A stretch of 37,015 bases of DNA from Parvularculaceae bacterium (GTDB lineage: Bacteria > Pseudomonadota > Alphaproteobacteria > Caulobacterales > Parvularculaceae). Made by a program: the position numbers and the translations under genes. Location of the stretch: contig JAJFFW010000060.1 of NCBI GenBank assembly GCA_021776435.1, forward strand, positions 1-37,015. The letters are read 5' to 3'. The notes beneath the pieces are model-generated. The model searched no databases. It saw nothing but the letters and a program-made list of their open reading frames with translations, and was not told the origin of the DNA. Shown piece by piece: positions 18,284 through 31,896 of the stretch. Position 1 is the first letter of the stretch. Each line of letters starts with the position of its first letter.

Positions 18284-18432
18284 AGCGCTTACCTCTCCCC
18301 TTTTAAGACCTCAGTAATATTATCGCATAATCTTAAGAAAATATTTCACCAAAGCGGCGGTGCAATCAATTCTCAAGCAATTCATGCCATCTCTACACAA
18401 CAAAAACGTAGAACTTGAGCCCAGACAGAAAC

Positions 18433-21210
18433 ATGACTCAGCGAAAAACTTCTATACGCAACCGTTTAACGTCATTGGTCGTGGTTTCAGTATTTGGCGC
18501 TGTCGCTATCGTTACAGCTTCATCGATCTTACGGGAAATTGTCCATTACGGAACTGCGAAGTCTACTGAGCTTCAAACAACCGCAAGTGTTATCGCCTCG
18601 GCTATTTCAAAACATATACAAACCAATGACGCCGAAGCCGCACGCAAAGACCTGAGCATAATCGCACAATCTCCTTCCATTCAATACATGAAGGTCACCT
18701 CCCTAAATGGGGATCCTCTCGTGGAAATCGGTGAACCCAACGACAAGGTCCGCGAGGACTTTATCAAGAGGGAACGGTCTAGCGCCGCATCGCTCGCGTT
18801 TTCAATACTCTCAACAAAGATGGTCAGCACCACAACGCCAATTTTTGCTGACGGAATTAATGTCGGCTCTCTATCGATACAATCCGATGCGTCAGATCTG
18901 TCAGCTCGGTTGGGCGTTTTACTCTATGATGCATTTGTCGCCAGCATTTTCGCAGCAGGCATAGGCGTATTAATCGCCGCAAGAATGCAGCGCTCAGTAA
19001 CCAACCCGATTCGCGATCTCGTCAACGTTATGAGCATTGTACAGAAATCTGGTGAGGTTCAGGCGCGTGCAAAACGAACAAGCAATGACGAAACGGGCGC
19101 GCTGGTCGATTCGTTTAACGACATGCTTGACCAGATTCAAGAACGCGATGCACGTCTGAAAACGCACCAGCGAAACCTGAAGAAAATCGTCCATCGCCGC
19201 ACACGGGAATTGGAGAAAGCAAAGGAAACCGCAGAGACCGCCAACCTCGCCAAATCGGAATTTCTTGCCGCCATGAGCCATGAGATCCGCACTCCAATGA
19301 ATGGCATGCTCGTGATGGCGGAACTGCTGAACAACGCTCATTTGGCCCCACGCCAGAAACGTTACGCGGACGTGATTGTAAAGTCCGGCCAAAGCCTATT
19401 GGCCATTATCAATGATATCCTTGATTTTTCAAAAATTGAAGCTGGCCGTTTAAGCCTGGAAATTATCCCCATTAAGCCAGTTGAGCTGATTGACGACGTG
19501 GTGGGGTTATTTTGGGAACGCGCCACTTCGGTCGGTGTCGATCTTACGGCCTATATTGCACCAAATGTGCCGGAAGAAATCTTGGGAGATCCCGTCCGAA
19601 TTAGCCAAATTCTTTCTAATCTTGTTAACAACGCCCTCAAATTTACAACACAAGGTTATGTATCCGTCAGTGCGCGTCGGATAATGAAAGGCACCGGCGA
19701 ATGCACTATTGAGTTCTCTGTGAGTGACTCTGGCGTCGGAATACCAAAAGAAAAGCAGACGACAATTTTTGAATCCTTTTCGCAAGCCGATCAGTCGACT
19801 ACTCGCAAATTCGGAGGAACTGGACTAGGACTTGCGATCTGTCAAAAACTCGTTGAAGCGATGGAAGGCATCATCTCAGTGACGAGCGCTGAGGGAAAAG
19901 GATCACGCTTTTCATTCAGCTTTCCTTCCGCAGTTATTAAGCCCGCACGCGCAGCCCCCAAAACCAATATTGATAAACGCGCCATCATCGCCATTGGTGG
20001 CAGCGCCACACCGAAGATGCTAGCGCGTTATCTTCAAGAAGCTGGCGTCACGCCTCAAATCGTCGATAGCGAAAATGACGTTGGACCTTTTCTGGCGTAT
20101 GCGGATATTATTTTTGCATCTCCAGATTTTCTCAATACATATCATCGCAGCGCACAAGAGAATTCGGACCGGTGGATCCCCGCTCGCGTATGCGTTAGCG
20201 AGCTTGGTGATTCAGAATCCGATCGGTTGCTCGAACTCGGCGTCGCCGAGGACCTTCTGATCAAACCGTTGTCTCGACGCGAAGTCATGAACCAGCTCGG
20301 ACGCCTCTTCGACGGCCGCCTGCGCCGTCAAGGCGCGGTGGGAGACGCGGGGCGTAACGACGTCGAGTTTCCTTCTTTTGCCGGCAAACGCATTCTTGCC
20401 GCCGACGATAACGCCGTAAACCGTTTGGTCATTCAAGAATCGCTGACGCGATTAGGTGTAGAGGCGACCCTGGTTGAAGACGGGAAAGCCGCCGTCACTG
20501 AAATTATGACCGGCGCTTATGATCTTGTTCTCATGGATTGCTCAATGCCCGTTATGGACGGCTTTGAGGCGACCGGCGCCATCCGAAAGTGGGAAACGCA
20601 AGACGGTCGTGAGCGGTTGCCGATCATCGCCTTGACGGCTCATGTGGCAGGCGATGATGAGGCTTGGCGTAAAGCCGGTATGGATTGCTATGTGACTAAG
20701 CCCTTCACGCTCGCAGCTTTGGTTGATGCGCTTAGCGAATTTCTTGCTCCAAACGCATCTGCCGATCAAGGCCGATCACCTGCAAGGGCGACAACGGTCG
20801 CAAGCGACGAAGAAGACACGTCGACGCCTGCCACAACCGGAAATGAAATATTCGATACGACAGTCCTGGACAATCTGGTTCAAATGCAATCCGAAAAAAC
20901 CGATCTCGTTGTACGGGCGCTCGATCTCTTCGAAGTCCATTCAAAACCCGCTATCTTGAACCTCGCCCACGCGACGCAATCCAAGGATAACACGCAAATC
21001 GCCAAAGCGGCGCACGCGCTGAAATCTATGAGCCTGAACGTAGGCGCGCGCCTTCTCGCCCAAACCTGCCAGAAAATCGAGACGAAAGCCGCCGGTGGCG
21101 CCAACACACGTTCGCTCGCGGAACTTTTCTTAACGGCGCAAAACGAATATGAGGCCGCGTTGGCAATGATCCCCGCGATGCAGGCAAAATACACTCCGAA
21201 AGCTGCTTGA
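18433..21210 (+). CDS. Membrane hybrid sensor histidine kinase (GacS/BarA-like: HAMP-HisKA-HATPase-pseudoREC-REC-HPt)
   Basis: 925 residues from the first ATG; an upstream TTG at 18415 is less likely, and neither has a strong Shine-Dalgarno. TM1 (about 10-34) and TM2 (about 163-184) flank a periplasmic sensor of about 130 residues. HAMP (185-240) and a coiled coil lead to HisKA with His283 ([13 protein letters not shown]). HATPase_c has [17 protein letters not shown] and [10 protein letters not shown] first REC-like domain (about 510-620) lacks the phospho-acceptor Asp (IIFASPDF) but keeps an LLIKPLS end. A normal REC (about 650-775) has Asp702 in [13 protein letters not shown] and Lys756. 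A C-terminal HPt carries His861 in [14 protein letters not shown]. This is a full four-step phosphorelay in one protein; the signal is unknown. Confidence 0.95.
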
Positions 21211-21288: not shown

Positions 21289-21945
21289 TTAATGTACGCG
21301 GATCGACACACGAGCGCACCCGATGATCAGCGCGGCGTCGCGCATATAGACCGTTTCATGATCGGGATCACTCGAGCAGGGCTCCAATCGCGATGGCGAT
21401 TCCTTCCATCTGCGCAAGATCGGGATAGCCCCCACTGCAGCCAAACAATATCCACCATCAAGCGGCCGACGGTCCCCATAATCGATGACCACTAACGTAT
21501 TTTTTGGGAATACCAGATCGACTGCATTGTCAGTCACAAAAATTGCAAACAATTTCGAAGACCCGAAGGTTACCGAAATATAGTCTTCCGCCGTCGCGTG
21601 CGGATCGGCATCCACATCACTGAGCAATCGGGCCGCATCATGTAACCCAATGACCGGCACATGCTGAACCGGTCGGCGCAGATAAGCTGCGGCCGGTTGC
21701 TTGTCTCGCTCGACTTCAGACCGTGCGCCCTCCGCCAGCCATTCTGCGGAGACGCCAAGCGCCTCCGCCAGCTTGGCCATCATCAGTCGGCGCGGATCAT
21801 GGATACCGCTTTCCCAATTGGCGATCGCAGGCTGGCTGACGCCAACACGTAATGCGAGATTGGCCTGATTGAGATTGAGTGACTTTCGCGTACTGCGAAT
21901 GCGCTCCCCGATTGAGTATGGTTTTTCCACAGTTTCCGAACGCAT
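21289..21945 (-). CDS. XRE-family repressor with degenerate S24/LexA-like C-terminal domain
   Basis: 218 residues from the ATG; in-frame GTG (21954) and TTG (22002) are alternatives. An N-terminal lambda-repressor-type helix-turn-helix (about 13-70; NQANLALRVGVSQPAIANWESG contains helices 2-3) is followed by a linker and an S24-like domain (about 95-215). Aligned by eye with lambda CI, VEGNSM becomes VTDNAV and FTFKK becomes PILRR, so the catalytic Ser is Ala141 and the Lys is Arg178/179. The protein should therefore not self-cleave in a RecA/SOS manner; the domain may instead dimerise or bind a ligand. A perfect dyad 24 bp upstream of the start suggests autoregulation. No phage genes are nearby. 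Confidence 0.88.
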   Translation of the reverse strand: MRSETVEKPYSIGERIRSTRKSLNLNQANLALRVGVSQPAIANWESGIHDPRRLMMAKLAEALGVSAEWLAEGARSEVERDKQPAAAYLRRPVQHVPVIGLHDAARLLSDVDADPHATAEDYISVTFGSSKLFAIFVTDNAVDLVFPKNTLVVIDYGDRRPLDGGYCLAAVGAIPILRRWKESPSRLEPCSSDPDHETVYMRDAALIIGCARVSIRVH

Positions 21946-21968
21946 CAGGGTCACGACCTCGCCCACAA

Positions 21969-21989
21969 AATATAAGCATAACTTATATT
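21969..21989. promoter_or_regulatory. Perfect 8-bp-arm dyad upstream of the XRE repressor, candidate operator
   Basis: The arms AATATAAG (21969-21976) and CTTATATT (21982-21989) are exact reverse complements around CATAA. The 21-bp site lies 24 bp before the repressor ATG, where a bound repressor would overlap the promoter or early transcript. Size and symmetry suit an XRE dimer. Confidence 0.6.
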
Positions 21990-22090
21990 CACTATCCGTC
22001 AAAGTCGTTTCTATTTCGATATATCGCCCTTGCCCAGCATTTTATGCCATTCCGAGTAAACTAGACGGTATATAATTTTAATGGAGCCCC

Positions 22091-22117
22091 TTGAAAAACA
22101 TCAGACGGCCTTATAAT
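22091..22117 (+). promoter_or_regulatory. Putative sigma-70-type promoter for the 67-residue protein
   Basis: TTGAAA (22091-22096) and a perfect TATAAT (22112-22117) are separated by 15 bp, shorter than the ideal 17. The -10 ends 47 bp before the ATG at 22165. Confidence 0.4.
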
Positions 22118-22164
22118 ATCAATCATTATCAGGTTGCATCCGTTGCTATTCCTTGAGGTGATTT

Positions 22165-22368
22165 ATGTCCGAATTCTGCTCCCGTGACGGGGCGTCACAT
22201 CTCGCTGTGAAAATCCAGGACTTCTGGCGAAAGCGCGGTTTTGATGTCTCGGTTGAAATGCGCAGCGAGGGCTTTGTTTCAACCATGCGCTCAGCAAGGA
22301 CGGATGTCCGGAGCGACATGATCAACGGAATGCCGCGTCGCATCATGGTTGAGGCCGTGGCCAGTTAG
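22165..22368 (+). CDS. Small protein of unknown function (67 residues)
   Basis: The ATG has a good TTGAGGTG seven or so bases upstream and a promoter-like TTGAAA/TATAAT pair before it. The protein is soluble, with no signal peptide or membrane segment. It begins with SEFCSRDGASHLAVKIQDFWRKRG over two helices, then a beta-like FDVSVEMR, and ends in a basic, Arg-rich part (MRSARTDVRSDMINGMPRR). The charged, ordered look and the strong ribosome-binding site favour a real gene. I do not recognise a characterised family. It is transcribed away from the XRE repressor and converges on gph with 22 bp between stops. It might be a regulatory target of the XRE protein; this is inference. Confidence 0.75.
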   Translation: MSEFCSRDGASHLAVKIQDFWRKRGFDVSVEMRSEGFVSTMRSARTDVRSDMINGMPRRIMVEAVAS

Positions 22369-25348: not shown

Positions 25349-25861
25349 ATGACAGCAACGAAATACGAAGTGCTTCAAAACGCAATCCGTAATTACGGCG
25401 CCGCTGCTTTTGAGAACCTGTTACGATGCAAAGCGATCGGTGAAGCGATCATTTCAGAATTCCATGAATATCTTGGCTGTGACAGGGCCTGCGTTGGTGG
25501 AGTCCCGGCAGAAGGTCCCTTCGACCCACGTCGCGATTATGGTGATGAGGCGTTTAGTTTTAACGGCCGTGAGGTCATCATTCTCGAGCCAGTGCGTTTC
25601 GGCGTGTCATTAATCGTGCAAAATGCAGAAGACGCCGGCGCATTGTGGCTTCGAACTGTCGTTTCTGTTGAGATAACAGGCGACACATTCGACGTCTTTG
25701 TCGCTTCTCAACCTATAATCCGTATACCTCTGGTTTTTAACGGTCAATTACATCCAGTATATGAGGCCATTCACCGCGAATTTCTCAATACGTTCGAAAT
25801 AGAAGTCATGGAATTCAACGATGCCCGGTTCAAGACAGGCATTGGCTTTTTACCCAGATAG
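25349..25861 (+). CDS. Protein of unknown function between rpiA and gor
   Basis: 170 residues, ATG start with only a weak GGAT upstream. There is no signal peptide or membrane helix. The N-terminal 45 residues look helical (NAIRNYGAAAFENLLRCKAIGEAIISEFHEYLG); the rest alternates beta-strands and loops (REVIILEPVRFGVSLIVQ, WLRTVVSVEITGDTFDVFVAS, IIRIPLVFNG), ending in a helix that precedes EIEVMEFND. This suggests a compact cytoplasmic alpha/beta domain. I do not recognise the family. Its place between rpiA (74-bp gap) and gor (36-bp gap) makes co-transcription likely, but gives no clear function. Confidence 0.8.
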   Translation: MTATKYEVLQNAIRNYGAAAFENLLRCKAIGEAIISEFHEYLGCDRACVGGVPAEGPFDPRRDYGDEAFSFNGREVIILEPVRFGVSLIVQNAEDAGALWLRTVVSVEITGDTFDVFVASQPIIRIPLVFNGQLHPVYEAIHREFLNTFEIEVMEFNDARFKTGIGFLPR

Positions 25862-27428: not shown

Positions 27429-28142
27429 CTAAAAATTCTTGATCTTATTTCGTGGTGTTCTCTTATCCGCGATAAGATTCTTAATCTGCAACGCAGATTC
27501 TTCGAAACCAATCTGATGGCGCGCAAAGTCCGTCTCTAACACCGCCTCTACGCCGGTCAATGTCGTCAAAGCATGGCGATTGAGAAGCAGGGAAGAGAGG
27601 TCGTCCGAATAACCATCAAGGCTAACCGTCTGAGCCGAAGTAAACAAATCATTGCGCAGCTGCTCCGCGAGCGCTGCAAAAACCGTAACGCTTGTGGCAA
27701 AATTTCCACGTGGCATGCCATAATCAGCGATCTCATAACGACTGATATACGCGGCCCCCGATGGGTCTAGCCCGGAAGAAGCAAAAGCGTAATGGTCGTT
27801 GAACGCATAAACGGTTTGCGAGTTCGCTTTGCCTTCAAACAAAGCAATCATATTCATGCCTACACAATTGACCTGACCAGGACCGCGACAGGCCGTTGGT
27901 TCGATTAAGAATGTCAACTGTCCCCCGATATTGGCCGATATATAGGTCTTGCCATCTTCTGTCGCTCTTGGTTGCCAGACAATGCCGAGTTCGCTGAGGG
28001 TCGGTCCAAGCGTTTCAACATCAAAATTTGGAAGAGTAGACGAAGGATTGCTGATCAGCTCAGATTGAGCGGAGGCCGAACCCGCGATCAGTAAACCAGC
28101 AATAGCGCCCGCTTTAATGGCGATTGCGAAATTCTTTTTCAT
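27429..28142 (-). CDS. Exported YbjN-domain-like protein
   Basis: 237 residues with a signal peptide (1-25, GSASAQS), so probably periplasmic. The middle of the mature protein (about 40-165) resembles the YbjN/type III-chaperone-like fold: a helix, antiparallel strands, then YISRYEIADYGMPRGNFATSVTVFAALAEQLR, which matches the family's L-x-R-Y ... G-x-x-R-x-N pattern by eye. Two cysteines (TACRGPGQVNC) may form a disulfide. The C-terminal 50 residues are helical and basic. YbjN proteins have no agreed biochemical role. It has an AGGAGG and a GGGG upstream of the ATG, stands alone, and is divergent from rsmB over 140 bp. Confidence 0.72.
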   Translation of the reverse strand: MKKNFAIAIKAGAIAGLLIAGSASAQSELISNPSSTLPNFDVETLGPTLSELGIVWQPRATEDGKTYISANIGGQLTFLIEPTACRGPGQVNCVGMNMIALFEGKANSQTVYAFNDHYAFASSGLDPSGAAYISRYEIADYGMPRGNFATSVTVFAALAEQLRNDLFTSAQTVSLDGYSDDLSSLLLNRHALTTLTGVEAVLETDFARHQIGFEESALQIKNLIADKRTPRNKIKNF

Positions 28143-30651: not shown

Positions 30652-31896
30652 ATGTCAGTACGAGATTGTTTTGATCTGCCCATTGCAGACGCCGACCCGG
30701 CGGTTGCAATAGGCTATGATCAATATGTTCATGAATTCCTGAGCTACGGCGCTGATCTGCGTAGCCTGTTTGCAATTGCAGATGCAGCCCCGGCATGCAC
30801 ACACACAAACGCACATGCTGCAGCATTGCACCTCGCCTTCGAGGGCGCGGAAGGCTGGGTCAGCGCGGCGCCTTATCTCGAACGCATGCGGCGCTCGCGT
30901 GACGGGCTTGCCTGCGAGCGCCAGAAACTGTTTTGCGACGCCGTCGAAGCTTGGTCGGGGCGCGATTTTCACAAGGCCTTCTCCACTCTCGACGAGCTGA
31001 CAGTGCGCTGGCCGGCTGATTTATGCGCCCTAAAATGGGCGCAGTATCACGCCTTTAATCTCGGCGATCAGGCCGGACTACTGCGTCTTGGCACGCGCGC
31101 CATGATTGTCCACGAAGATCGGCCCTACGCCCACGGAATGATTGCATTTGCGCTTGAGCAAAACCACCGCCTGCGCGAAGCGGAAGAGGAAGGTCTGAAA
31201 GCAACCGAGATTGCGATCGACGACGCCTGGGCTCATCACGCCGTTGCTCATGTACTTGAAACCGAAGGCCGCGCAATCGAGGGCGCGCGCTGGATGCGGC
31301 GATGCTCGCATACCTGGGACAAAAAAGGTGTTTTTATACGCGACCACAATTGGTGGCATGTGGGCCTTTTCCATATCAGACTTGGCGAGCCTGACGAAGC
31401 GCTTAAAATCTTTGACGAGCGGCTTTGGGGCGCTTGGCCTGAATTCCCGCAAGAACAAATCGGCGCAGCATCCATGTTATGGCGACTTGAACTTCACGGT
31501 GTCGAAGTTGGCGATCGGTGGAAACCGGTTCTCGAGCAAGTTCGCACACGCGTCGAGGAACACGTCTTTCCATTCCATGACCTTCATTACCTGATGGTGT
31601 TATCACGGGCGGGCGCACCGGGTGAAGCAGATCAGTTTATTCGCTCACTGACGACATATGCTGAACGTCAATCAGGCGCCGCGCATGAAATTTGGGCTGG
31701 CGCCTGTCTGCCGGCAGCGCGCGGAATCAAGGCTTTCGCCGAAGGCGCTTTCGAAGACGCGACGCGCGACCTCGCCGATGTCATACCGCGTCTACATTGT
31801 ATCGGCGGAAGTCATGCTCAACGGCAGATATTTATCGAAACCTGTGATGCGGCGCTCACTGCGCTCGAATCCGGTGCGGTGCGCTCCAGTCACTAA
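30652..31896 (+). CDS. TPR-repeat protein, TTC38-like
   Basis: 414 residues, cytoplasmic, no signal peptide. It is almost all helical, in pairs typical of a tetratricopeptide solenoid: for example RALEIx-type segments at 45-75, 115-160, 165-200 and 235-265 (GLFHIRLGEPDEALKIFDERL). The conserved HHAVAHVLETEGRAIEGARWM and HNWWHVGLFHI blocks are the marks I associate with the TTC38-like family found in bacteria and animals, whose function is unknown. The clustered histidines (HHAVAH, HNWWH) are unusual for a plain scaffold and could bind metal or be catalytic. The stop overlaps by four bases that of the convergent DUF2794 gene. Confidence 0.85.
   Translation: MSVRDCFDLPIADADPAVAIGYDQYVHEFLSYGADLRSLFAIADAAPACTHTNAHAAALHLAFEGAEGWVSAAPYLERMRRSRDGLACERQKLFCDAVEAWSGRDFHKAFSTLDELTVRWPADLCALKWAQYHAFNLGDQAGLLRLGTRAMIVHEDRPYAHGMIAFALEQNHRLREAEEEGLKATEIAIDDAWAHHAVAHVLETEGRAIEGARWMRRCSHTWDKKGVFIRDHNWWHVGLFHIRLGEPDEALKIFDERLWGAWPEFPQEQIGAASMLWRLELHGVEVGDRWKPVLEQVRTRVEEHVFPFHDLHYLMVLSRAGAPGEADQFIRSLTTYAERQSGAAHEIWAGACLPAARGIKAFAEGAFEDATRDLADVIPRLHCIGGSHAQRQIFIETCDAALTALESGAVRSSH

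Follow-up and report, generated by a model that had tools for sequence, protein, structure and literature searches.

How is a repressor of the CI/LexA type released from its operators when the residues with which its relatives cleave themselves are gone? The question is raised by REP, a gene in a window of 37,015 nucleotides (the whole stretch of DNA that was analysed) from a Parvularculaceae bacterium. In our view REP is likely to be a vertically inherited chromosomal repressor of the lambda-CI/P22-c2 type with a pseudoprotease C-terminal domain, autorepressing a two-gene divergon and released otherwise than by self-cleavage. The features on which this reading is built are as follows (positions within the window):

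21289..21945, minus strand: REP, CI/LexA-like repressor gene, 218 aa plus stop, probable start ATG 21945
21721..21912, minus strand: HTH domain of REP, aa 12-75, P22 c2/434 repressor type (Pfam HTH_3, E 2.4e-14)
21292..21660, minus strand: C-terminal LexA/CI-fold (S24-like) domain of REP, aa 96-218, catalytically dead as judged by sequence
21631..21636, minus strand: Ala104-Ala105, at the place of the LexA/CI Ala-Gly scissile bond (47-ortholog alignment)
21523..21525, minus strand: Ala141 codon GCA, at the catalytic Ser position (alignments)
21412..21414, minus strand: Arg178 codon CGC, at the catalytic Lys position (alignments)
21969..21989, no strand: putative operator O1, AATATAAG-N5-CTTATATT, overlapping the predicted REP promoter
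21975..22002, minus strand: predicted REP promoter TTGACG-N16-TATGCT, a consensus match only
22091..22119, plus strand: predicted orf67 promoter TTGAAA-N17-TAATAT, a consensus match
22099..22115, no strand: putative operator O2, TATAAG-N5-CTGATG (minus-strand reading), 2 mismatches, inside the predicted orf67 promoter
22165..22368, plus strand: orf67, conserved divergent small gene, 67 aa, without a named family

The translation of REP from ATG 21945 to the stop at 21289 on the minus strand begins MRSETVEKPYSIGERIRSTRKS. The frame is open up to TTG 22002, the longest ORF being 21289-22002. ATG 21945 is the likelier start, since a start at TTG 22002 would include both dyad and predicted promoter in the coding region; it is further supported by most orthologs, in which the ATG lies about 30 bp past the start of the dyad. 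REP carries the N-terminal Cro/CI-type HTH that characterizes CI/c2-type XRE repressors, closest to those of the P22 c2 and 434 repressors (P22 c2 match, E 2.7e-12). In an AF2 model of REP, built on a 28-sequence alignment (mean pLDDT 89), this HTH matches P22 c2 with Z 13.2 and rmsd 1.4 over 65 residues, and the best PHROG match of REP is a phage repressor. The Pfam S24 match is weak (E 0.008, below the cutoff), and several orthologs exceed that cutoff by themselves. According to the model, REP possesses the LexA/CI C-terminal fold of S24 peptidases, its C-terminal 114 residues matching LexA 3k2z (Z 14.7, rmsd 2.5) and its C-terminal domain lambda CI (Z 14.6). Superposition of the predicted structure thus bears out the initial annotation, which had suggested by eye that the fold is kept. 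Estimated from ortholog pairs with dS below 1.5 only, dN/dS is about 0.21 for the HTH and 0.31 for the S24 domain, and both domains are by this measure under purifying selection.

REP lacks the Ser-Lys dyad of S24 peptidases, and our alignments agree with the earlier assignment of the catalytic Ser to Ala141 and the catalytic Lys to Arg178. In an hhalign alignment with an intact XRE-S24 protein of another alphaproteobacterial family, which is short and weak for homology and ungapped in register, FVTDNAV/YVVGESM pairs Ala141 with Ser; the same-register stretch reads FVTDNAVDLVFPKNTLVVID in REP and YVVGESMMPRFRPAQLLHVN in the intact protein. The profile alignment with the LexA of the same genome (hhalign) pairs PILRRWK with ATLKRIR and thereby places Arg178 at the catalytic Lys. 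The spacing between A141 and R178 is identical to that between Ser and Lys in the intact XRE-S24 protein (37 residues). When REP is aligned with M. tuberculosis LexA by HMMER, the Lys again falls on Arg178 and the Ser loop is one residue off, because this loop is one residue longer in M. tuberculosis LexA. Among the 47 orthologs, position 141 is occupied by Ala in 40, Pro in three, and Thr, Glu, Val or a gap in one each, but never by Ser, which is likewise never found at the neighbouring column N140. Position 178 is Arg in 42, Gln in two, His in two and Ser in one, but never Lys, and the dyad is therefore missing from all 47 as it is from REP. The initial annotation had missed that the Ala-Gly bond is lost as well: its Gly is present in one of the 47 orthologs, and REP has Ala104-Ala105 in its place, in a register inferred from the preceding strand. 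A canonical LexA coexists with REP in the same genome, and the LexA proteins of the genomes compared retain the GESM/GDSM, LKR and Ala-Gly elements.

In view of the missing dyad, which was looked for, we do not class REP among the S24 peptidases. With Ser, Lys and the Ala-Gly bond gone, REP is not expected to be released by the known type of RecA-stimulated self-cleavage. As judged from the orthologs, the loss of the dyad is older than the family and fixed, in a domain that is still under purifying selection. Throughout the family, REP clearly represents a CI/LexA-type repressor deprived of its built-in off switch and still under selection.

O1 is an exact dyad of 21 bp, AATATAAG-CATAA-CTTATATT, at 23 bp from ATG 21945, and the sole exact repeat of this kind in the 219-bp intergenic region; the site with exact 8-bp arms that had been described beside the start of REP is confirmed at 21969-21989. 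The repeat alone is weak evidence, because a perfect 8-bp-arm repeat occurs in 2.5% of simulated copies of the intergenic region, and it is the conservation among orthologs that makes O1 real. Of 40 orthologous intergenic regions, 37 contain an O1-like site with at most two mismatches in 12 positions, in most cases 27-38 bp upstream of the ATG. By this conservation the putative O1 corresponds to the palindromic operator that CI/c2-type repressors have in their own promoter region. Neither of the two observations that the initial annotation had named as speaking against it, Ser and Lys in homologs at a misaligned position or a dyad not conserved upstream of orthologs, was made.

The genome search for the dyad that had been proposed at the outset returned about one perfect site per genome. 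In 60 Parvularculaceae genomes of about 3 Mb each, 25 perfect palindromes were found, at least 21 of them beside REP/orf67; of the 23 whose surroundings were retrieved, two lie elsewhere. The genome of REP itself contains two 1-mismatch sites, both overlapping predicted ORFs. A broad regulon is rejected on these two results, and by its distribution the putative O1 is essentially a single-locus operator and REP would act locally, a property that had not been anticipated. With such a tiny and well-defined target set, the induction of a pseudo-S24 repressor becomes testable in cultured Parvularculaceae. The off-locus palindromes are L183:1501-1517 and L178:1501-1517; one is intergenic, with TonB-receptor-like and LysR-like genes around it, and the other lies inside an ORF.

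O1 and O2 each overlap one of only two promoter-like matches in the intergenic region. O2, which was also absent from the initial annotation, is a second copy of the putative operator whose right half is degenerate. About 29 of the 40 orthologous regions contain the form TATAAG-N5-CT[GA]ATT...TTTCAA at 34-56 bp from the small ORF, and the orf67 promoter element TTTTTTCAAG (other strand CTTGAAAAAA) is conserved in orthologs. Against the reading of O2 as an operator count the degeneracy of this half and the conserved T-tract, which may be retained for promoter function only.

We posit that the C-terminal domain has kept its LexA-fold architecture presumably for dimerisation; oligomerisation of REP is plausible because this is the role of the domain in CI and LexA. 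A REP dimer bound to O1 would cover its own promoter and thus bring about negative autoregulation, and a dimer on O2 would repress orf67 from inside the orf67 promoter, both promoters then being occluded. Derepression would require a ligand or a partner protein, degradation by a separate protease, or no more than control by dosage. The CI protein of phage 186, a repressor of related fold, is relieved by an antirepressor.

REP shares the HTH type and the CI/LexA-fold C-terminal domain with lambda CI, P22 c2 and the 434 repressor, and it probably resembles them in autoregulating through palindromic operators between divergent promoters. Unlike these repressors, it has neither the Ser-Lys dyad nor the Ala-Gly bond, is chromosomal, has a near single-locus operator and is not surrounded by phage genes. 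A precedent for a pseudo-S24 regulator is Synechocystis LexA (Sll1626), a protein of LexA fold that reportedly has neither the nucleophile nor the cleavage bond and is not induced by damage (PMC2921402). REP shares both losses, but Sll1626 is a LexA from another lineage, whereas REP is of the XRE/CI type and stands beside a canonical LexA. Gifsy repressors of the GfoR/GtgR type are CI-like, are thought not to self-cleave and are released by antirepressors (PMC3121763). Like them, REP would need another release route; they are prophage-borne and without the bipartite CI structure, whereas REP keeps a full LexA-fold domain. New with respect to the known cases is that REP is chromosomal, XRE-type, family-wide, near single-locus and accompanied by an unnamed small divergent gene. 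A literature search for XRE regulators with an inactive S24 domain and for LexA of cyanobacteria gave no match in a limited collection, which says little.

The small gene, not mentioned in the initial annotation, has no family match in Pfam, NCBIfam or PHROG. Wherever the sequence extends far enough to show it (24 loci), the gene adjoins REP divergently; its dN/dS is about 0.2, and its family has the near-invariant pattern C, GA, W, G, F, MRSAR-D-RS-M-NG-P. The layout is that of Acinetobacter UmuDAb-DdrR, where the divergent small protein DdrR binds the S24 repressor and enhances its DNA binding (PMC11332147). In both systems an S24-fold repressor is divergent from a small lineage-restricted protein, with an operator in the shared promoter region. 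The main rival to our reading is therefore a module of this kind, in which the 67-aa protein would bind REP as corepressor or antirepressor and the dead S24 domain would serve as docking site. Besides the divergent layout, the shared operators and the lack of a named family, this is favoured by distant orf67 homologs that lie directly downstream of a different, intact XRE-S24 gene in every one of 24 loci from an Azospirillum-like genus (genus name inferred), apparently an independent association. These loci are L190:1480-1743 with L190:1878-2654, plus L195-L217, and their XRE-S24 protein carries GESMMP ... LVKEF. The small protein, unnamed and deeply conserved, is associated with regulators of LexA fold in two distinct lineages. 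However, UmuDAb is self-cleaving and bound by DdrR, whereas REP is a pseudoprotease and orf67 persists without REP in other families, where it is conserved beside gph-glmU. As orf67 is kept where REP is absent, its function is independent of REP, which weakens the comparison, and the AF2 model of the 67-aa protein is poor (pLDDT 69). We regard such a module as unlikely. Also unlikely is the wider proposal that proteins of the orf67 family serve LexA-fold repressors as partners widely in the alphaproteobacteria; they would modulate or be controlled by cleavage in the Azospirillum-like genus, and the Parvularculaceae pseudoprotease would be switched by the small protein or another ligand at the dead active site.

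Of 25 family genomes, 20 carry full-length REP and three a diverged form, and none was found in the other two; a second Caulobacterales family has REP in a few genomes as well. In comparison, 158 of 200 genomes from the order Caulobacterales contain orf67, though none of the listed genomes of one family (f3, probably Caulobacteraceae) does, and the gene is nearly absent from the rest of the class (one genome outside the order among 289). REP is adjacent in 45 of 80 named orf67 loci, missing in 32, and cut off by a contig end in three; in the inspected REP-less loci, orf67 stays beside gph and/or glmU. Operator and repressor co-occur: 32 of 33 upstream regions of REP-less loci have at least three mismatches to the operator, and in the single exception the contig is cut before the place of the repressor. 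In other REP-less families the absence of the site is weak evidence, because their upstream regions are wholly different. The informative case is L064, a REP-less Parvularculaceae locus in which the TATAAG half has decayed and the promoter tract is kept.

That the locus is a domesticated or decayed prophage immunity region, with REP a former CI and orf67 the gene in the former Cro position, is very unlikely. The divergent arrangement of repressor and small ORF, the HTH nearest P22 c2 and 434 and the PHROG match to a phage repressor fit such an origin, as do viral contigs (L220, L221, L222, L223 and seven more) that encode relatives of the small protein. However, no REP-like repressor lies beside these relatives in the stretches covered, and no copy of orf67 was found in annotated phage or plasmid records. 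The small protein is also without a Pfam HTH match and more widely spread in the order than REP. In the window no phage genes were recognised, the neighbours are housekeeping genes, and synteny with gph-glmU is conserved across the family, so that the initial view of a chromosomal regulator stands. A phage origin of REP/orf67 would be ancient at most.

Self-cleavage of REP after all, by a misaligned dyad or a different nucleophile, is extremely improbable: Arg179 is Lys in two of the 47 orthologs and other Ser residues lie nearby, but the alignments fix the register, position 140 is never Ser, and 46 orthologs lack the scissile-bond Gly.

As a partner of REP, the histidine kinase gene at 18415-21210 was rejected, being convergent and adjacent in only part of the orthologs. 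Three long ORFs of the window (25349-25861, 27429-28142 and 30652-31896) are without a Pfam match at E 1e-5, and an Rfam search identified no RNA families. Between the operators, at 22031-22070 and in orthologous intergenic regions, two more motifs are conserved, GTTTAC (minus strand) and a TGCTGCA.CGCA-like block, the latter seen in many orthologs.
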